From positions 62,001-126,000 of the forward strand of contig NZ_SORI01000001.1 of assembly GCF_004366815.1 (NCBI RefSeq): DNA of 64,000 nucleotides, written 5' to 3'. Of the stretch, positions 5,463-50,740 are shown piece by piece. This stretch comes from Aminivibrio pyruvatiphilus (GTDB lineage: Bacteria > Synergistota > Synergistia > Synergistales > Aminobacteriaceae). Position 1 is the first letter of the stretch. The number at the start of each line of letters is the position of its first letter. The notes under the pieces were generated by a model. It was not told where the DNA came from. It did not search any database and worked only from the letters and a program-made list of their open reading frames with translations. Made by a program: the position numbers and the translations under genes.

Positions 5463-8400
5463 ATGGACAGCAAATCCCTTTGGAAAAAAATCTTGTCCTT
5501 CATGAGTTTGCGAAGGTTGCGTTCCACATACATGAGCGGTGCAGAAGATTCTGCAGTGTATAATTCCCGCGGAAAACAGTTTTTCGGACGGGCTCAGGAA
5601 GTCTCCTTCGGAACAGAGCTGTTCAGTGCAGATCAGATGGAGCAGCATGGGAAAATTCTTGCGCGCAGGCATCGTGTGCAGTCCGGACATCCACGGGATT
5701 CTCTTCTGCCTCTGCTGGATGGAAACGAGAAGCTCCTGCGTGAAGCTTACGGCCAGATGGAGGATGACGCCGAGGCCGGGCGCAGGATAGTGCCGGCCGG
5801 AGAATGGCTGCTCGACAACTTTCATTTGATCGAAGAACAGATCAGGACGGCCAGGCGGCATTTGCCGAAGGGATACAGCCGGGAACTGCCGTATTTGACA
5901 GGCGATTCGGCGGAGGAGTTCCCGCGGGTGTACGACATAGCCAGGGAGACGATTTCGCATTGCGACGGGCGGGTGGATCCGGAAAACCTCGTCCGCTTCG
6001 TCAAGTCCTATCTGTCGGTGACGACGCTCAAGCTGGGGGAGCTCTGGGCTATCCCGATCATGCTGAGGCTGGCGCTGATAGAGAACCTCAGGCAGGTTGC
6101 GGATCGGCTGATTGCTGCGCGCGCGTATCGCAACCTTGCGGAATTCTGGGCCGACCGGATGATCCATGTGGCGTCGGAGGATCCAAAGAACCTGATTCTG
6201 CCGATCGCCGATATGGCTCGTTCAAATCCGCCCATGGACGCTTCCTTTGTCGCAGAGCTGACTCGCCGGCTACAGGGACAGGGGACCGCTCTGACTCTGC
6301 CTTTGACGTGGATGGAGCAGCAGCTGTCGGAGAACGGCCTGACGATCGAACAGTGCGTGCGCTCCGAAAATCAGAGGCAGACGGTGGATCAGGCTTCTAT
6401 ACGCAACAGCATAGGCAGCCTCCGTTTTCTGGGGGCGATGGACTGGCGCAAGTTCGTCGAGACGATGAGTATCGTGGAGCAAACCCTGGAAGAGGATCCC
6501 GCCGGGATCTACCGCAGGATGGATTTTACCACCCGCGACCGGTATCGCCATGTTGTGGCGCGGATCGCAAAGAACAGTCCGTGTTCCGAGATTGACGTTG
6601 CCCGCAAGGCGATTCAGCTTGCCCGCGAAGGAGCGGCCGAAAGAGGCGACGGCGACAGAACGGCACACGTGGGATTCTATTTGATCGACGAAGGAACGGC
6701 TCGTCTTGAACGCGAGTCGGGGGGCCGCTTTTCACTTGCGTTCGGAGCGGCCGGACTTTGCCGCCGCTGCCCATTGGCGCTCTATCTCGTGAGTATCCTG
6801 CTGCTGACCGCTGTTCTCTCGGGAGGGCTCGTCGCGAAAACCCTCCTCGACGGGACGGCGACAGGTGCGGCCATTCTGCTTGGACTGCTTTCCTTCCTCT
6901 GCGCCGGTCACCTGTCGATCGCACTTGCGAACTGGCTGGCGACGCTGATGGCTTCGCCGCGCCTGCTGCCGCGCATGGACCTCTCCGGGGGCATACCGGC
7001 GGAGCTGCTGACCCTGGCAGTTACCCCGACCATGTTCAGCAGCGTTTCCGGCGTTGAAGAGCTGGTCGCGGCAATGGAAGTCCGCTTCCTGGCCAATAGG
7101 GACGATCACCTCCTCTTTGGCCTGCTCACTGACTTTCCGGATGCCGCGGAAAAAACGCTGCCGGAAGATGCGTTCCTCCTGAAGACCGCCCGGGAAAGAA
7201 TCGAGGCGCTGAATGAAAAGTACCGGAGGGCGGAGAGAGATATTTTCTTCCTGTTCCATCGCCCCCGCCGCTGGAATCCACAGGAAGGCGTGTGGATGGG
7301 GTACGAGCGAAAAAGAGGCAAGCTCGCCGCTTTGAACGCGTTCCTTCGCGGCGGCGGCGAGGATGCTTTCGCCCTCGTCGTGGGAGAGATATCCGGACTG
7401 TCCGGGGTGAAGTATGTAATCACCCTGGACACAGATACACAGCTGCCCCGCGATTCAGCCCGGCAGTTTGTCGGCGTCATGGCGCATCCGCTCAATCGGG
7501 CGAGGTACGATGAAGAGCGCAGGCGGGTAACGGCCGGGTACGGCATTCTGCAGCCGCGCGTGGCGGTGAGCATTATCGGAACGAACCGGTCGAGGTATGC
7601 GCGCCTGTGGACGAGTGAACTCGGCATCGATCCGTATACAAGGGCCGTCTCCGACGTGTATCAGGACCTTTTCGGCGAAGGTTCCTTCATCGGCAAGGGG
7701 ATCTATGATATCGACGCGTTCGAGCTGGCTTTGAGAGGGCGCTTTCCCGAAAACCGCATTCTCAGCCACGATCTCCTGGAGGGGTGCTACGCCAGGGCCG
7801 GACTGTTGAGCGACGTACAGCTCTACGAAGAGTATCCGTCTCGCTACCAGGCTGATGTGAGCCGGCGTCACCGATGGATTCGCGGTGACTGGCAGATTGC
7901 GCAGTGGTGCTTGCCGCGGGTTCCGGAAGCGGACGGGAGGCTGCGGAAAAATCCGCTCTCCATGCTCTCCCGCTGGAAGATCTTCGACAATCTTCGGCGC
8001 AGCCTGATGGCACCGGCGCTGATGCTCCTGCTGGCGGCGGGCTGGTTTCTTTCTCCCTCGCCTCTATTCTGGACACTTGCGGCGGCGGGTGTCATCCTGA
8101 TCCCTTCTTTCATCTCCTCCGCCCTGAACCTCTTTTCAAAACCGAACGATGTCGCTCCCCGGCAGCACTTTGCCGCTGCTCTGGATTCGGCGGCGAGGGG
8201 CCTGGCCCGGGACGCGTTTACGTTCATCTGCCTGCCCTACGAGGCGTTCTTCAGCATGGACGCGATAATGCTGACGCTTGTCAGGATGGCGGTCACGAAA
8301 AAAACGATGCTCGAATGGAATCCGTCGGGAGGTCCGGAGCGTGCCGGGCACGCGGATCTCAGGGAGGCGTATCGGACTATGTGGAGTGCGCCGGTTACGG

Positions 8401-11400
8401 CCGTGATCGTATGCCTGGCGATCCCGTCGGCCGGGGTGGGGGCACTGTTTTTCGCGGCTGGCCCCGTACTCGCTCTCTGGTGCGTGTCGCCCGCGGTCGC
8501 ATGGTGGACAAGCCGGCCTCTGACTCGACGCCGAATGCTTCCGACGGAGGAGCAGCGGGTGTTTTTGCGCAGAATCGCCAGGAAGACATGGTCATTTTTC
8601 GAGACGTTCATCGGCCGGGAAGACAACTGGCTGCCTCCCGACAACTATCAGGAGCATCCTGTTGAGGTAATCGCACACCGCACGTCGCCCACCAATATGG
8701 GGGTCGCCCTGCTGGCGAATATGTCGGCCTTTGATTTCGGCTATATATCTGCGGGGCGGTTTCTCGAACTGACGGGGCGGACTCTGCGTACCATGGAGGG
8801 GCTGGAACGGTATCGAGGGCACTTTTACAACTGGTACGATACACGCACTCTGAAGCCGCTGACGCCTCTGTATGTTTCGACGGTGGACAGCGGAAACCTC
8901 GCAGGGTACCTGTTGACGCTCCAGAGGGGAGTGCTGGCGCTTGCAGATCACAGCATCTTCGACCCCCGTTTCTTCGAGGGGCTGAACGATACCCTCGGAA
9001 TCATAGCCGGGGCCCAGGCGCTCTTTTCGGGAAGCACCCAGCCTTCATGGCTCTCCCGTCTTCGCATGGACATGGAATCCGCTCTCTCCTCTGGGGCTGC
9101 GGCGCCCGAGGCTCTGCGGCTCGCACTGGAACGGCTGGAAGAATCAGCCTCAGCAGCCGCCGCTGCCGAGTCGAACGATAGGGATGCCGGGAATAATCTG
9201 AAGGGGTGGCTCCAAACCTTTGCAAGGCAATGCAGGGATGGGATTGACGAACTGACGTTTCTCGTTCCCTGGGCGGTGAATTCTTCCTCAGGGTATATCT
9301 TCGAAAACCTTCCCGATCCCGGTTCTTTTCCGACACTGCGTGAACTGGCCTTGCTGGAAAAAAAGATTCTTCCTTCGATCGAACTGCGTCGTGCCGCCTG
9401 CCCGCCTGAGGAGCGGGACGGACTCGATACGCTCGCCGGTCTTCTCGCTGAGTCGGGAAAACGCGCCCGCAAGAGGATTGAGGACACCGAAGAAATCGCG
9501 AATCTGTGCGACGAGCTTGCCCGGATGGAATACGGTTTCCTGTACGATGAAACACGCCATTTGCTGGCTATCGGCTACAATGTCGACGAGCGTCGTCCGG
9601 ACGCAGGCTACTATGACCTTCTTGCTTCCGAGGCGCGGTTCGCCACGTTCGTGGCCATTTCCCAGGGGAGACTGCCGCAGGAGAGCTGGTTCGCCCTGGG
9701 GCGACGGCTTACCGCCGCCGGAGGAATTCCGATGCTTCTCTCCTGGAGCGGGTCCATGTTCGAATACCTGATGCCGCTTCTGGTGATGCCGACCTATGAG
9801 CACACGCTGCTCGACGAGACGTACAATGCGGTTGTGGCCATGCAGATCAAGTACGGGGAGATGCGCACCGTCCCCTGGGGTATTTCGGAATCTGGGTACA
9901 ATGCATTCGATGTTCACCTCAACTATCAGTACAGAGCGTTCGGTGTGCCGGGACTGGGAATACAGCGGGGGCTTGCCGAGGATCTGGTGATCGCGCCCTA
10001 TGCTTCGATGCTGGCGCTCATGGTGGCCCCGGAAGAGGCGTGTTCGAATCTTGAGCGTCTCTCCGCGGAAGGCTTTGAAAGCTGGTTCGGCTTCTACGAA
10101 GCGATCGACTACACTCCGTCGCGCTTACATCGCAACCAGCCGCACGCGACGGTTCGTTCCTTCATGACCCATCATCAGGGAATGGGGCTGCTCTCCCTGG
10201 CGAATCTGCTTCTTGACCGTTCAATACAGCGGCGATTCGAGTCCAGCCCGCTGTTTCAGGCGACGCTCCTGCTGCTCCAGGAACAGATTCCAAAAGCGAC
10301 AGCGTTCTTTGTCGACGCCATTGAACACTTCGAGTCGCGGACTGTTTCGGGGGTTCCCGAGACGTCCATACGCATTTTCCGTACTCCGGATACGCCGAAC
10401 CCGGAAGTGCAGTTGCTGTCGAACGGAAGGTACCATGTGGCGGTAACGGCTTCAGGCGGCGGCTACAGCCGCTGGAAAGAGCTTGCGGTGACCCGCTGGC
10501 GGGAGGATCCAACCCGCGACAACTGGGGCGCTTTCTGTTACATTCGCGACACGGCAAGCGGCGACTTCTGGTCGAATACCTATCAGCCGACACTGAAAAG
10601 CCCCGAGCAGTACGAGGCCATCTTCTCGGAGGGGCGGGCGGAGTTCCGTGTCCGCGATCACGAATACGACATCTATACTGAGATCGCCGTCTCGACCGAG
10701 GATGATATCGAGCTGCGCCGCATCCGCATCACCAACCGCGCGAGGACGCGCCGTGAGGTCGAGGTAACCAGCTATGCGGAGGTCGTTCTGGCTCCGCCTG
10801 CCGCAGACGCTCTTCATCCCGCGTTCAGCAATCTTTTCGTACAGACCGAAATACTCCGCAGAGAACGGGCGATTCTCTGCACCCGCCGTCCGCGGGTCGA
10901 CGGAGAGGATCCTCCCTGGATGCTTCATATGATGACGGTGCGCGGGGCATCGGTGGGAGAAGCCTCCTACGAGACCGACCGGATGAAGTTCATCGGGTAC
11001 GGAAACAGCGTCGAAAATCCGCAGGCGCTGGAACGGAGCGGCGGCGCCGGTCCAGCGCCGCTCTCGGACAGCGAGGGCTCGGTGCTGGATCCCATAGTCT
11101 CCATCCGCTGCCGGATAACGCTGGCCCCCGAGGAATCGGTCACGGTGAATATCGTCTCGGGCATCGGCGAAACCCGAAAACAAGCGATGGATATGATAGG
11201 AAAATATCAGGACAGGCGTCTCGCAGACCGTGTCTTTGATCTTGCATGGACTCACGGACAGGTTCTCCTGCGGCAGATAAATGTGTCGGAGGCCGATGCT
11301 CAGCTCTATTCACGGATTGCCGGTTCGATTCTCTACGCCAATGCTGCGCTTCGGGCCGAACAGAATCTCCTCGTTAAAAACCGCCGTGGGCAATCGGGGC

Positions 11401-14324
11401 TCTGGGGGTACGCGATCTCCGGAGATCTCCCGATTGTGCTTCTGCGAATAACCGATCCGGCCAATATCGACCTGGTGCGTCAGCTTGTGCAGGCACATGC
11501 CTACTGGCGCCTCAAGGGGCTGGCTGTCGACCTCGTGATCTGGAACGAGGACCGGGCAGGCTACCGGCAGCTTCTTCACGACAGCATCGTGGGAATTGTC
11601 TCCTCGGTTGTCGAAGCACGTTTTACCGATCGGCCGGGCGGTATCTTCGTACGGATTGCTGAACAGATCGCGGAAGAGGACCGCATCCTTTTCCAGACGG
11701 TTGCACGGGTCATCGTCTCCGACACCCGGGGAACTCTGGAGGAGCAGACCGGCGGCCGCACCTCCGGGAATGTTTCGGTTCCTCTCTTTGTGCCCGTTCA
11801 CCCCCCTCTTCCCGAACAGCTTCCGTCGGCCCCGTCGCCGCGCAACGATCTCATGTTCTGCAACGGACTCGGCGGGTTCACTCCCGACGGGCGCGAGTAT
11901 GTCATCACGACCGCCCGCGGACTGCGGACACCGGCGCCGTGGGTGAACGTCCTGGCCAATCCGGATTTCGGAAGCGTTGTCACCGAGAACGGTTCGGCCT
12001 ATACGTGGAGCGAGAATGCCCACGAATTCCGCATTACTCCGTGGGGGAACGATCCTGTGAGCGCTTCGGGCGGCGAGGCGTTCTATCTTCGCGACGAGGA
12101 GCGCGGACACTACTGGTCGCCCGCTCCGTTCCCGTGCCGGGGAGCGACTCCGTACGTCGCCAGGCACGGGTTCGGCTACACCGTCTTCGAGCACACAGAG
12201 CGCGATATCCGTTCCGAATTGTGGATGTATGTGGCCCTGGACGCTCCGGTGAAATTCTTTGTGCTCAGGGTGCACAATCTCTCGGAACGTTCCCGCCGTC
12301 TTTCCGCCACAGGGTTTATCGAGTGGGTGCTCGGCGACCTGCGCCCGAAATCGAGTATGCACGTAATAACGGAGGTCGAGCCGAACAGCGGTGCGCTCTT
12401 CGCGCGCAATCCGTACAACACTGAGTTTCCCGGCCGAACTGCTTTCTTCGACGTGGACGAGCCGATGCGCAGCGTCTGCGGAAACCGGACGGAGTTCCTG
12501 GGACGGAACGGGACGGCGGGCGCACCCGCCGCAATGAAGCGCGCCGGTCTCTCAGGCAGAACCGGGGCGGCTCTTGACCCCTGCGCCGCGATTCAGGTCC
12601 GGTTCGATCTGGCCGCCGGGCAGGAGCACGAAATAGTCTTTCGGCTTGGCGCGTGCAAAGATGCGGACGAGGCGGCCAGACTCGTCGCCCTCTTCAAGGG
12701 ACCATCCGCTGCCCGCGAGGCTCTTGACGCCGTCTGGCAGCACTGGACGCACACCCTTGGCGCGATTAATGCGGAAACGCCCGACCGTTCTCTGGACGTT
12801 CTGGTCAATGGCTGGCTTCTGTACCAGACTCTGGCGTGCCGCATGTGGGCGCGAAGCGCGACATACCAGTCGGGAGGGGCGTTTGGCTTTCGTGATCAAC
12901 TGCAGGATTCCATGGCGCTTGTTCACGCGAAACCCGGTCTTGTTCGGGATCATCTGCTCCTGTGCGCATCCCGCCAGTTTCCCGAAGGGGATGTGCAGCA
13001 CTGGTGGCATCCGCCGACGGGGCGGGGGGTGCGGACGCGCTGTTCCGACGACTACCTCTGGCTGCCTCTCGCGGCGTCCCGCTACGTCGTCGTGACCGGG
13101 GATTTCGGAGTCCTGGACGAAGCCGTTCGGTTTCTTCAGGGCCGTCCCCTCAACAAGGAGGAGGAGTCCTATTACGACCTGCCGGGTTATTCTGAAGAGA
13201 CTGCGAGCCTGTACCGGCACTGTGTTCTGGCCATAGAGAAAGGACTTTCGTTCGGCGAGCGGGGACTGCCGCTCATGGGCTCCGGCGACTGGAACGACGG
13301 TATGGACAAGGTCGGGCTTCAGGGGATGGGGGAGAGCGTGTGGCTGGGTTTTTTCCTCTACGAAGTGCTTTCGCGTTTCGCAGGAGTCGCCCGCGCTTAT
13401 GGCGATGCATTGTTCGCCGAACGGTGCGAACAGGAGGCTTTTGTGCTGTGTCTCAATATTGAGAAAAGCGGATGGGACGGAGAATGGTATCGGCGTGCCT
13501 ACTTCGACGACGGCTCTCCTCTCGGTTCGGCGGAGAACAGCGAGTGCCGTATTGACTCAATCTCCCAGAGCTGGTCGGTTTTGTCCGGCGCAGGGGACCA
13601 TGACCGCACCGTTCAGGCGATGGAGTCGGTGGATACGCATCTGGTCAGCAGGGAAGACCGTCTTGTCAAACTGCTTGACCCGCCCTTCGATAGGTCAGAG
13701 CCGAATCCCGGGTATATCAGGGGGTACGTCCCCGGCGTACGGGAGAACGGCGGTCAGTACACCCATGCCGCCGTCTGGGCCTCCATGGCTTTTGCCCGGC
13801 TGGGGGATGCGCCCCGCGCGTGGGAAGTTTTTTCGATGATCAATCCGGTGAACCACGGGCGGACCCCTGAAGAGGTCGATATCTACAAAGTGGAACCGTA
13901 TGTCGTCGCGGCTGATGTGTACGTAGCTCCGCAGCATTTGGGCCGCGGCGGATGGACATGGTACACGGGATCGGCGGCATGGATGTACCGCCTGATCGTC
14001 GAGTCGCTTCTCGGACTCGTGGTCGAAGCGAATACGCTGCGTTTCATTCCGTGTCTTCCTCCCGAGTGGGAGGGGTGCACGATACACTACCGGTACATGG
14101 ATACGGTCTATAACATCAGGATGCTGCAAAACGCCGGCGCGCCACAGGGGACCGCTTCTTCTCCCTTAGGGACACCCCCCCCTGAAACCATGGGGATGAC
14201 GGTCGATGGCGCCGAACAGAGCGGCGGTATCGTGCCGCTCGTGAACGACCTGCGCGAACATGAGGTGGAAGTACGGTTTTCGGTTGCGCGCGGTTCGAAT
14301 GCCGCCGGGAGGGAGATTCAATAG
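5463..14324 (+). CDS. ndvB: Cyclic beta-1,2-glucan synthase-like protein (GT84 - glycoamylase-like - GH94)
   Basis: A single 2,953-residue protein, matching the usual 2,800-2,900 residues of NdvB/ChvB/Cgs. Visible parts in order: N-terminal region; membrane helices near 437-492; the glycosyltransferase 84 core with the TLDTDTQLPRDSA metal site (about 655-667) and RRHRWIRGDWQ (about 801-812, a Q/R-x-x-R-W-like acceptor motif); more helices near 850-885 and 970-1020; a glycoamylase-like domain (about 1070-1560, with SPTNMGVALLAN and FMTHHQGMGLLSL); beta-sandwich and GH94 phosphorylase-like domains (about 1650-2900) with GDWNDGMD near 2608-2615 carrying the catalytic Asp of GH94. The family initiates, elongates and cyclises beta-1,2-glucan for export to the periplasm. 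The gene stands alone with its own promoter. Codon use is richer in CGC/CGT and TCG than nearby genes, hinting at transfer. Whether the product is cyclic here is unproven. Confidence 0.9.
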   Translation: MDSKSLWKKILSFMSLRRLRSTYMSGAEDSAVYNSRGKQFFGRAQEVSFGTELFSADQMEQHGKILARRHRVQSGHPRDSLLPLLDGNEKLLREAYGQMEDDAEAGRRIVPAGEWLLDNFHLIEEQIRTARRHLPKGYSRELPYLTGDSAEEFPRVYDIARETISHCDGRVDPENLVRFVKSYLSVTTLKLGELWAIPIMLRLALIENLRQVADRLIAARAYRNLAEFWADRMIHVASEDPKNLILPIADMARSNPPMDASFVAELTRRLQGQGTALTLPLTWMEQQLSENGLTIEQCVRSENQRQTVDQASIRNSIGSLRFLGAMDWRKFVETMSIVEQTLEEDPAGIYRRMDFTTRDRYRHVVARIAKNSPCSEIDVARKAIQLAREGAAERGDGDRTAHVGFYLIDEGTARLERESGGRFSLAFGAAGLCRRCPLALYLVSILLLTAVLSGGLVAKTLLDGTATGAAILLGLLSFLCAGHLSIALANWLATLMASPRLLPRMDLSGGIPAELLTLAVTPTMFSSVSGVEELVAAMEVRFLANRDDHLLFGLLTDFPDAAEKTLPEDAFLLKTARERIEALNEKYRRAERDIFFLFHRPRRWNPQEGVWMGYERKRGKLAALNAFLRGGGEDAFALVVGEISGLSGVKYVITLDTDTQLPRDSARQFVGVMAHPLNRARYDEERRRVTAGYGILQPRVAVSIIGTNRSRYARLWTSELGIDPYTRAVSDVYQDLFGEGSFIGKGIYDIDAFELALRGRFPENRILSHDLLEGCYARAGLLSDVQLYEEYPSRYQADVSRRHRWIRGDWQIAQWCLPRVPEADGRLRKNPLSMLSRWKIFDNLRRSLMAPALMLLLAAGWFLSPSPLFWTLAAAGVILIPSFISSALNLFSKPNDVAPRQHFAAALDSAARGLARDAFTFICLPYEAFFSMDAIMLTLVRMAVTKKTMLEWNPSGGPERAGHADLREAYRTMWSAPVTAVIVCLAIPSAGVGALFFAAGPVLALWCVSPAVAWWTSRPLTRRRMLPTEEQRVFLRRIARKTWSFFETFIGREDNWLPPDNYQEHPVEVIAHRTSPTNMGVALLANMSAFDFGYISAGRFLELTGRTLRTMEGLERYRGHFYNWYDTRTLKPLTPLYVSTVDSGNLAGYLLTLQRGVLALADHSIFDPRFFEGLNDTLGIIAGAQALFSGSTQPSWLSRLRMDMESALSSGAAAPEALRLALERLEESASAAAAAESNDRDAGNNLKGWLQTFARQCRDGIDELTFLVPWAVNSSSGYIFENLPDPGSFPTLRELALLEKKILPSIELRRAACPPEERDGLDTLAGLLAESGKRARKRIEDTEEIANLCDELARMEYGFLYDETRHLLAIGYNVDERRPDAGYYDLLASEARFATFVAISQGRLPQESWFALGRRLTAAGGIPMLLSWSGSMFEYLMPLLVMPTYEHTLLDETYNAVVAMQIKYGEMRTVPWGISESGYNAFDVHLNYQYRAFGVPGLGIQRGLAEDLVIAPYASMLALMVAPEEACSNLERLSAEGFESWFGFYEAIDYTPSRLHRNQPHATVRSFMTHHQGMGLLSLANLLLDRSIQRRFESSPLFQATLLLLQEQIPKATAFFVDAIEHFESRTVSGVPETSIRIFRTPDTPNPEVQLLSNGRYHVAVTASGGGYSRWKELAVTRWREDPTRDNWGAFCYIRDTASGDFWSNTYQPTLKSPEQYEAIFSEGRAEFRVRDHEYDIYTEIAVSTEDDIELRRIRITNRARTRREVEVTSYAEVVLAPPAADALHPAFSNLFVQTEILRRERAILCTRRPRVDGEDPPWMLHMMTVRGASVGEASYETDRMKFIGYGNSVENPQALERSGGAGPAPLSDSEGSVLDPIVSIRCRITLAPEESVTVNIVSGIGETRKQAMDMIGKYQDRRLADRVFDLAWTHGQVLLRQINVSEADAQLYSRIAGSILYANAALRAEQNLLVKNRRGQSGLWGYAISGDLPIVLLRITDPANIDLVRQLVQAHAYWRLKGLAVDLVIWNEDRAGYRQLLHDSIVGIVSSVVEARFTDRPGGIFVRIAEQIAEEDRILFQTVARVIVSDTRGTLEEQTGGRTSGNVSVPLFVPVHPPLPEQLPSAPSPRNDLMFCNGLGGFTPDGREYVITTARGLRTPAPWVNVLANPDFGSVVTENGSAYTWSENAHEFRITPWGNDPVSASGGEAFYLRDEERGHYWSPAPFPCRGATPYVARHGFGYTVFEHTERDIRSELWMYVALDAPVKFFVLRVHNLSERSRRLSATGFIEWVLGDLRPKSSMHVITEVEPNSGALFARNPYNTEFPGRTAFFDVDEPMRSVCGNRTEFLGRNGTAGAPAAMKRAGLSGRTGAALDPCAAIQVRFDLAAGQEHEIVFRLGACKDADEAARLVALFKGPSAAREALDAVWQHWTHTLGAINAETPDRSLDVLVNGWLLYQTLACRMWARSATYQSGGAFGFRDQLQDSMALVHAKPGLVRDHLLLCASRQFPEGDVQHWWHPPTGRGVRTRCSDDYLWLPLAASRYVVVTGDFGVLDEAVRFLQGRPLNKEEESYYDLPGYSEETASLYRHCVLAIEKGLSFGERGLPLMGSGDWNDGMDKVGLQGMGESVWLGFFLYEVLSRFAGVARAYGDALFAERCEQEAFVLCLNIEKSGWDGEWYRRAYFDDGSPLGSAENSECRIDSISQSWSVLSGAGDHDRTVQAMESVDTHLVSREDRLVKLLDPPFDRSEPNPGYIRGYVPGVRENGGQYTHAAVWASMAFARLGDAPRAWEVFSMINPVNHGRTPEEVDIYKVEPYVVAADVYVAPQHLGRGGWTWYTGSAAWMYRLIVESLLGLVVEANTLRFIPCLPPEWEGCTIHYRYMDTVYNIRMLQNAGAPQGTASSPLGTPPPETMGMTVDGAEQSGGIVPLVNDLREHEVEVRFSVARGSNAAGREIQ

Positions 14325-28102: not shown

Positions 28103-28356
28103 CCTAAATCCGCAGCTTTTCCTGGCAGAGGGAGTGTCGCCGGGCATAAGGTGAATTCGCCCCCCAGGGGCGAAGAGATGATCCCCTGGGGGACAGCGCC
28201 CGGGCCGAGAAACCGACATGGATGTCGGTTTCACAGGCAGGCAACCGGCGAACGCAGGGAGCCGAGTTGATCGCCTGGGCAGTTGTCAAGGATGACAATC
28301 TGCACCGACGGCCCAAGCGAGCACCGGTGACGCTCCCCGCTGCCTGCGGATTTAGG
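28103..28356 (+). repeat. Structured repeat element, copy 1 (254 bp, 13-bp terminal inverted repeats)
   Basis: The ends CCTAAATCCGCAG (28103-28115) and CTGCGGATTTAGG (28344-28356) are perfect inverted repeats. Inside are several hairpins: cctggca/cgccggg, TTCGCCCC/GGGGCGAA, one at 28209-28232 with a TGGA loop, and one at 28279-28303 with an AGGA loop. A second copy lies at 50516-50727, nearly identical apart from about 42 extra bases here. It has no coding potential I would trust. It could be a MITE-like mobile repeat, a structured RNA, or both. It fills most of the 28028-28465 gap. Confidence 0.85.
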
Positions 28357-50503: not shown

Positions 50504-50740
50504 AGCCCCCTTTCGCCTAAATCCGCAGCTCTTCCCGGCAGAGGGAGTGTTGCCGGGCATAAGGTGAATTCGCCCCGCCAGGGGCGAAGAGATGACCCCC
50601 TGGGGGGCAGCGCCCGGGCCGAGAAACCGACAAGGATGTCGGTTTCAGGTGCAGTTGTCAAGGACGACAATCTGCACCGGCGGCCCAAGCGAGCACCGGT
50701 GACGCTCCCCGCTGCCTGCGGATTTGGATTTCGGGGGCTT
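50504..50740 (+). terminator. Possible pyr terminator split by the repeat element
   Basis: The sequence agccccc lies just before repeat copy 2 and gggggcttttttt just after it. Without the repeat the two would form a short GC stem followed by T7. The repeat may have inserted in the loop of the pyrE terminator, or its own closing stem extends into these arms. The outer stem plus T-run could still terminate. Confidence 0.45.
50516..50727 (+). repeat. Structured repeat element, copy 2 (212 bp)
   Basis: Starts CCTAAATCCGCAG and ends CTGCGGATTTGG. Hairpins are all conserved: cccggca/tgccggg (perfect here, mismatched in copy 1), TTCGCCCC/GGGGCGAA, 50623-50646 with AGGA loop, 50649-50677 with AAGGAC loop. 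It lacks about 42 bases present in copy 1 between the last two hairpins. Located between pyrE and a hypothetical gene; same orientation as copy 1. Confidence 0.87.

Follow-up and report, generated by a model that had tools for sequence, protein, structure and literature searches.

The question raised by this locus is why two neighbouring hairpins that present GGA in their loops should recur within one stretch of bacterial DNA, and whether they are what the initial annotation proposed, a repeat whose transcripts may bind or titrate CsrA. The window, as the term is used here, is the whole 64,000-nucleotide stretch of Aminivibrio pyruvatiphilus that was analysed, and positions given without a locus number refer to it. 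The genome to which it belongs is denoted G000, and G025, G026, G027 and G028 are genus mates.

Twin GGA hairpins at the centre of a MITE

In copy 2 of the repeat, hairpin 1 lies at 50623..50646 on the plus strand (GAAACCGACA-AGGA-TGTCGGTTTC, an AGGA loop with its GGA at 50634-50636) and hairpin 2 at 50648..50678, also plus (GGTGCAG.TTGTC-AAGGAC-GACAA.CTGCACC, GGA at 50662-50664). Their plus-strand counterparts in copy 1 occupy 28209..28232 (GGA 28220-28222) and 28277..28307, the latter with approximate edges (GGA 28290-28292), so that the two GGAs lie 28 apart in copy 2 and 70 apart in copy 1. Coordinates, sequences and folds all agree with the hairpin pair originally described for each copy, and the claimed consensus fit also holds, since all four loops match CANGGANG. 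This motif occurs 89 times on the two strands of the window, and 9 of these occurrences fall inside a hairpin of at least 6 pairs under a permissive rule (4 of the 9 being the loops of the window copies), whereas 60 shuffles averaged 2.0 and never exceeded 6. As the motif is not rare by itself, the proof that the GGA hairpins are real is their conservation.

Both window copies fold as a branched palindrome much larger than the hairpins themselves (z -7.85 and -8.22), and the fold of the minus strand is just as strong (z -8.33), with TCC in its loops. The strand is therefore not fixed by fold stability alone; the assertion that GGA loops on the plus strand set an RNA orientation is correct as to the loops, and any orientation would come from the GGA and not from the fold.

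Overlooked in the initial annotation was the mobile nature of the repeat. The hairpins form the centre of a transposon, which spans about 213 bases in copy 2 (50516..50728, GGA strand plus, delimited by its terminal inverted repeats (TIRs) and sequence; locus L001 1517-1729) and 254 bases in copy 1 (28103..28356, plus; locus L006 1501-1754). Copy 2 begins with the left terminal inverted repeat CCTAAATCCGCAG (50516..50528, plus) and is bracketed by the 5-base target duplication TTTCG at 50511..50515 on the left and 50729..50733 on the right, and the direct repeat of copy 1, ACGGG, is one base off at its left end. The element ends are the 13-base terminal inverted repeats CCTAAATCCGCAG/CTGCGGATTTAGG, and G000 contains 35 exact occurrences of the 13-mer and G028 contains 135, with a count of 0 for the reversed control. 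Of 65 end pairs drawn from three genomes within the genus, where some few elements enter with more than one partner end, 47 have perfect 5-base target duplications; 2000 partner shuffles averaged 0.9 and reached 5 at most.

Insertion sequences (IS) with the same ends are present in G000, G025, G028 and G027, and G000 holds 8 close copies and one divergent match, most of which reach a contig end. The transposase, as seen in the G028 copy, belongs to the IS1380 family (NF033539, 3.3e-51; PF13701, 1.1e-17), with an NF033539 score of 174.2 bits that is just below the NCBIfam cut-off of 180 and an open reading frame that is cut at the end of the stretch; the N-terminus of the transposase alone gave no Pfam match, and a longer copy led to IS1380. 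Since the repeat has no transposase of its own, it is a MITE, as is shown by its ends, its target duplications and the matching IS in the same genome. One IS copy in G027 (L200 1501-2313) carries an internal deletion and measures 813 bases; this genome has neither csrA nor the GGA MITE. At the left end of the IS1380-type IS (L018 1656-1767), a perfect CTGTTC-GGA-GAACAG hairpin is located in the transposase leader, upstream of the start codon, and could possibly, if speculatively, be a CsrA-type site on the transposase mRNA.

The 3.35 Mb genome contains 50 pieces that match copy 2 by blastn, corresponding to 28 elements when read by eye; 22 of these have both GGA hairpins, with the GGA intact in all 44 loops, and 6 are without the hairpin module. 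Modules have been gained and lost among the copies, namely the twin GGA module, a 48-base hairpin (TAAGGTGAATTCGCCCC..., at 50560..50607 in copy 2, plus), which comparison of the copies shows to be missing from the compact ones, and a stretch of some 43 bases separating the GGA hairpins, recognised in the same manner in copy 1 (28233..28276, plus, edges approximate). Five own-genome copies that lack the hairpins have both ends readable; perfect target duplications flank four of them (L018, L022, L024 and L027), and that of L026 matches in 4 of 5 bases. A requirement of the hairpins for transposition is ruled out by these duplications.

Several other features were observed alongside the elements. 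Outside the window, one MITE copy (L024 1501-1946, G000:C1:179372-179817) contains the 48-base TAAGGTG hairpin module about seven times in tandem. A minimal copy (L027 1466-1554) has only 89 bases, with a 56-base core that approximates one perfect hairpin, and a perfect target duplication. A SAM riboswitch (L008 1790-1890, 90.6 bits) lies about 130 bases beyond another copy, and the window includes an open frame of 2953 codons (5463-14324, plus). Pfam returned no match for the open reading frame downstream of copy 2 or for the minus-strand frame beside copy 1.

Conservation of the GGA loops and the TwoAYGGAY match

Conservation was assessed in 74 de-duplicated elements (23 in G000, 15 in G025 and 36 in G028), which had been collected by blastn with the whole element and not with the loops; some loci were lost on de-duplication, among them L006 (copy 1 of the window), whose loops are intact. 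The twin-hairpin module is present in 70 of the 74, and the GGA is kept in 70/70 loops of hairpin 1 and 70/70 of hairpin 2, so that the drift which had been named as a possible refutation is not seen in other copies. Among 25 distinct cores, the GGA columns are invariant (6/6), compared with 10/28 of the other unpaired columns (Fisher 0.006), and the base directly before the GGA is distributed as A6 C6 T6 G7 in hairpin 1 and A11 T7 C4 G3 in hairpin 2. A chance motif is ruled out by this combination of a constant GGA and a freely varying preceding base. Stem pairs changed on both sides number 6, versus 2.8 in shuffles, but such covariation is weak evidence for RNA because templated correction can maintain pairing in DNA palindromes too.

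Variation is unevenly distributed along the elements. In the 33 compact copies of G028, deviations from the consensus amount to 7/1848 positions in the core (0.0038) and 260/3597 outside it (0.072), and in 40 copies found by blastn in G111 they amount to 18/1920 (0.0094) and 643/8000 (0.080), the 16-base ends being the most variable part (180/1280). The motif CAGGACG occurs twice in 36 of these 40 copies, and the remainder differ in or beside the loop. In these two unrelated MITE families the core is thus 9-19 times less variable than the remaining sequence. A constant core with variable ends is the reverse of what would be expected of passive MITE cargo, and the conservation profile, together with the hairpin-less copies that have moved, supports the view that selection on something other than transposition maintains the module. 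In G000 and G025, copies that lack recognisable TIRs (11 of 15 listed) retain about 90% identity in the core and about half in the end regions, and in the orthologous pair L017/L132 the core is nearly identical while the flanks are more diverged. Both observations would fit with selection on the core, for which an origin of the TIR-less copies from TIR-less ancestors is the alternative.

In genus g27, which belongs to another family of the same order, the module is carried by elements with unrelated ends (about GGGNACCTCTAAAAAC) that have perfect 4-base duplications in 49 of 96 cases, compared with a shuffle mean of 5.7 and maximum of 16. The GGA is kept in 67/67 and 66/67 loops, with 1 of 68 loci giving no match to each hairpin pattern, in counts that mix loci found by blastn with loci found by Rfam, the latter being biased towards GGA. 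The hairpin stems are wholly different between the genera and the GGA loop is the same. As both the ends and the target duplications differ, the two MITE families are probably moved by different transposases.

The module resembles a known RNA motif. A permissive Rfam scan aligned 50623-50680 of copy 2 with RF01731 (TwoAYGGAY) at 40.9 bits and E 1.7e-5, the gathering score being 43, and the window gave no match in a scan at the gathering threshold. Across the own genome, 18 places match RF01731 at E <=0.1, and 4 of them exceed the gathering score, with others falling slightly short of it. The RF01731 alignment has the same plan, an outer stem that encloses two GGA hairpins, and sequence, predicted structure and Rfam score indicate that the twin-hairpin module is of TwoAYGGAY type. 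Matches per genome number at least 89 in G109, at least 36 in G111, at least 30 in G028, at least 24 in G110 and at least 14 in G025, at most 101 candidates having been scored in each genome, with only 1-2 in G017, G018 and G160. An exact hairpin scan of 84,980 species genomes, which may leave out the own genome, identified a single assembly, the metagenome-assembled Synergistaceae bacterium LM3-B4.3 (15 stretches), and viral contigs had no exact match to either hairpin.

Compared with the TwoAYGGAY occurrences listed in the excerpted text of Weinberg 2010 (PMC2864571), from the human gut, gammaproteobacteria and Clostridiales, the present repeat likewise has a pair of neighbouring hairpins whose GGA-type loops are enclosed by a long outer stem, but differs in being the payload of transposons, in belonging to another phylum and in reaching at least 89 matches per genome. 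A role of TwoAYGGAY as a CsrA-sequestering RNA has been proposed as a testable hypothesis (Gardner and Eldai, PMC4333381, in the portion available), and the available portions of papers naming TwoAYGGAY contain no test of its function.

CsrA, FliW and the flagellin leaders

A csrA gene is present in the genome (PF02599, E 6.8e-24 and 2.3e-24 in two scans) and directly follows fliW; the lack of a csrA homologue, the other refutation named at the outset, thus does not apply. The N-terminal 51 residues of the protein align with RsmE (2jpp), with an arginine at the place of R44. Strict filters detected RF01731 in 11 of 185 genomes from the phylum, and the number rises to 12 with G110, which came from a looser search of 14 genomes. 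All 12 module-bearing genomes have csrA, versus 116/185 overall (hypergeometric 0.003, uncorrected for relatedness and involving only 4 genera); csrA itself is found in 36 of 62 genera and the module in only 4, and the co-occurrence is not independent of descent. Within the genus, G000, G025 and G028 have both csrA and the module, while G026 and G027, both fragmented assemblies, have neither of them and no full flagellin, the IS being present in G027.

The hairpin loops match both the E. coli CsrA SELEX consensus, RUACARGGAUGU (excerpt of PMC7652899), and the RsmE consensus, (A/U)CANGGANG(U/A), and match the Campylobacter consensus mAwGGAs in part (both given in an excerpt of PMC6692469). With 10-12 pairs, their stems exceed those of most SELEX ligands in length, and long stems may disfavour CsrA binding according to the same excerpted review (PMC7652899). 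The CsrA-type reading put forward originally is partly supported, by the presence of csrA, the constancy of the GGA, the consensus match and the match to an Rfam family already proposed to sequester CsrA; its choice of a strand would come from the GGA and not from the fold.

The flagellin genes offer a point of comparison. The leader of the main flagellin in G000 contains a hairpin whose AGGA loop is closed by A-U, which is the predicted geometry of hairpin 1; it has a ACAAGGAGG Shine-Dalgarno sequence and has the loop sequence AAGGAT in common with the repeat. Of the main flagellin leaders of 13 genomes, 11 have a GGA-loop hairpin 18-70 bases upstream of the start, compared with 1209/20000 random windows of the same flagellin loci (6%), although a p value for this comparison is overstated because the genomes are related. 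The two leaders without one are those of G160 and G030, and the hairpin picked in G033, which is among the 11, is weak. If the hag leader in the excerpt of PMC7652899 is taken as a guide, these hairpins suggest what CsrA may recognise in these bacteria. The hag leader, a target of CsrA and FliW, likewise presents GGA from a hairpin loop, and its Shine-Dalgarno sequence carries A(N)GGA; it is, however, a single mRNA leader, whereas the repeat is untranslated and dispersed.

Competing explanations and biological meaning

The explanation we consider probable, with some reserve, is that of a non-autonomous transposon with a TwoAYGGAY module whose GGA loops, once transcribed, would serve as a decoy or binding module for CsrA. 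The repeat is mobilised in trans by the IS1380-family transposase of the genome, and its GGA strand would be copied into RNA through read-through or from promoters that happen to lie upstream; CsrA would then bind the two GGA loops, probably as one dimer per element, and the copies together would act as a CsrA decoy or would place neighbouring transcripts under CsrA, with FliW as the other antagonist of the same CsrA.

In simple sigma-70 scans, copy 2 had no promoter-like sequence or terminator in or beside it, and copy 1 had no promoter for the plus strand, its single match lying downstream. A strand bias relative to genes (27 v 13 in genus g1, p 0.04, from a set not clustered by orthology and with genes taken from a codon-usage caller and not from annotation; 20 v 9 in the first g27 set) was not replicated in fresh G109 sites (12 v 12; 31 v 21 for g27 overall), and was dropped as unproven. 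Certain intergenic spots are occupied by oppositely oriented elements in sister species, as in the pairs L025/L146, L032/L142 and L021/L173, where elements with different ends occupy the same spot in both species; it is as if spots were reused or the element flipped. Because of the null promoter scans, the failed strand bias, these orientation swaps, the minus-strand fold and the long stems, transcription, CsrA binding and CsrA titration by the repeat are steps that we infer from its sequence.

The null promoter scans and the lack of a robust strand bias also fit a plain selfish MITE, in which the hairpins are passive cargo or an aid to the folding of single-stranded DNA and the GGA is a frozen relic of recent amplification. 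That account draws further strength from the pronounced TIR and target-duplication signal, from the large palindromes usual in MITEs and from the near identity of many copies. We nevertheless regard it as unlikely, as hairpin-less copies also bear perfect duplications, as conservation of the core far exceeds that of the TIRs in two MITE families whose ends differ, as the base before the GGA is saturated while the GGA is fixed, and as the stems have been replaced between genera and the GGA loop has not. The conservation evidence does not name the ligand, and TwoAYGGAY has no experimental function in the available text of papers naming it; the hairpins might accordingly be a structural RNA or have a partner other than CsrA, such as another RNA-binding protein or a nuclease. 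The match of the loops to the published CsrA/RsmA consensuses (as excerpted), the same type of hairpin in flagellin leaders of the phylum and the presence of csrA in every genome in which the module was found speak against this, and we give it the lowest weight of the readings considered. Within the CsrA decoy or binding explanation, a sub-case is that each insertion acts in cis, putting its neighbouring transcript under CsrA, rather than by titration. Elements of g1 lie mostly near the 5' sides of genes (24 divergent versus 3 convergent gaps), as this would require, but g27 has no such skew (20 divergent, 24 convergent), and some elements, such as L010, are located upstream of promoter-like sequence (by eye). 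A purely cis role seems improbable on this balance, if slightly less so than a different ligand.

Taking the CsrA decoy or binding explanation further, one may tentatively envisage transposable CsrA decoys, in which at least two unrelated MITE families of this phylum have the TwoAYGGAY module with its GGA under selection, and copy number would set the CsrA-buffering capacity of the cell beside FliW; we hold this broader proposal to be possible but doubtful. The element might profit if CsrA represses its transposase.

Three known systems resemble the repeat in part. Like the CsrB/CsrC and RsmX/Y/Z small RNAs (sRNAs), it has repeated GGA hairpins that fit the CsrA/RsmA consensus, but unlike CsrB/RsmZ-type sRNAs it has two sites per unit in many dispersed copies, and no promoter or terminator of its own was found by the simple sigma-70/terminator scan of the two window copies. 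A 2020 review (PMC7652899, excerpt) describes fliW as anticorrelated with BarA-UvrY, and the genome of the repeat has fliW. With IS1380-derived MITEs it has in common a TIR matching that of an IS1380-family IS in the same genome and 5-base target duplications; it differs from them in that the centre, and not the ends, is most conserved and in that hairpin modules are gained and lost. The Coxiella burnetii sRNAs CbsR3/13, from QMITE1, are a further case of a bacterial MITE that supplies small RNAs (PMC5896051, excerpt). RNA-seq detected them, and an excerpted MITE review, which cites Coxiella and regards sRNAs from MITEs as conceivable, calls their role unknown. The excerpts report no CsrA sites, whereas the repeat is recognised from DNA sequence alone and has a defined protein-site signature. 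In the open-licence PMC literature, no paper was found that links CsrA with MITEs, sponges or GGA repeats, or that joins Synergistetes, CsrA and FliW.

The excerpt of PMC7652899 describes it as an open question whether any species combines FliW with sRNAs in acting on CsrA, and the repeat, if the proposed explanation is true, would provide a concrete case of such joint action. CsrA and the 55-base twin hairpin constitute a defined, directly testable pair. If the explanation holds, TwoAYGGAY would gain both a ligand and a mode of spread, and a mobile element would serve as a tunable sponge for a global post-transcriptional regulator.
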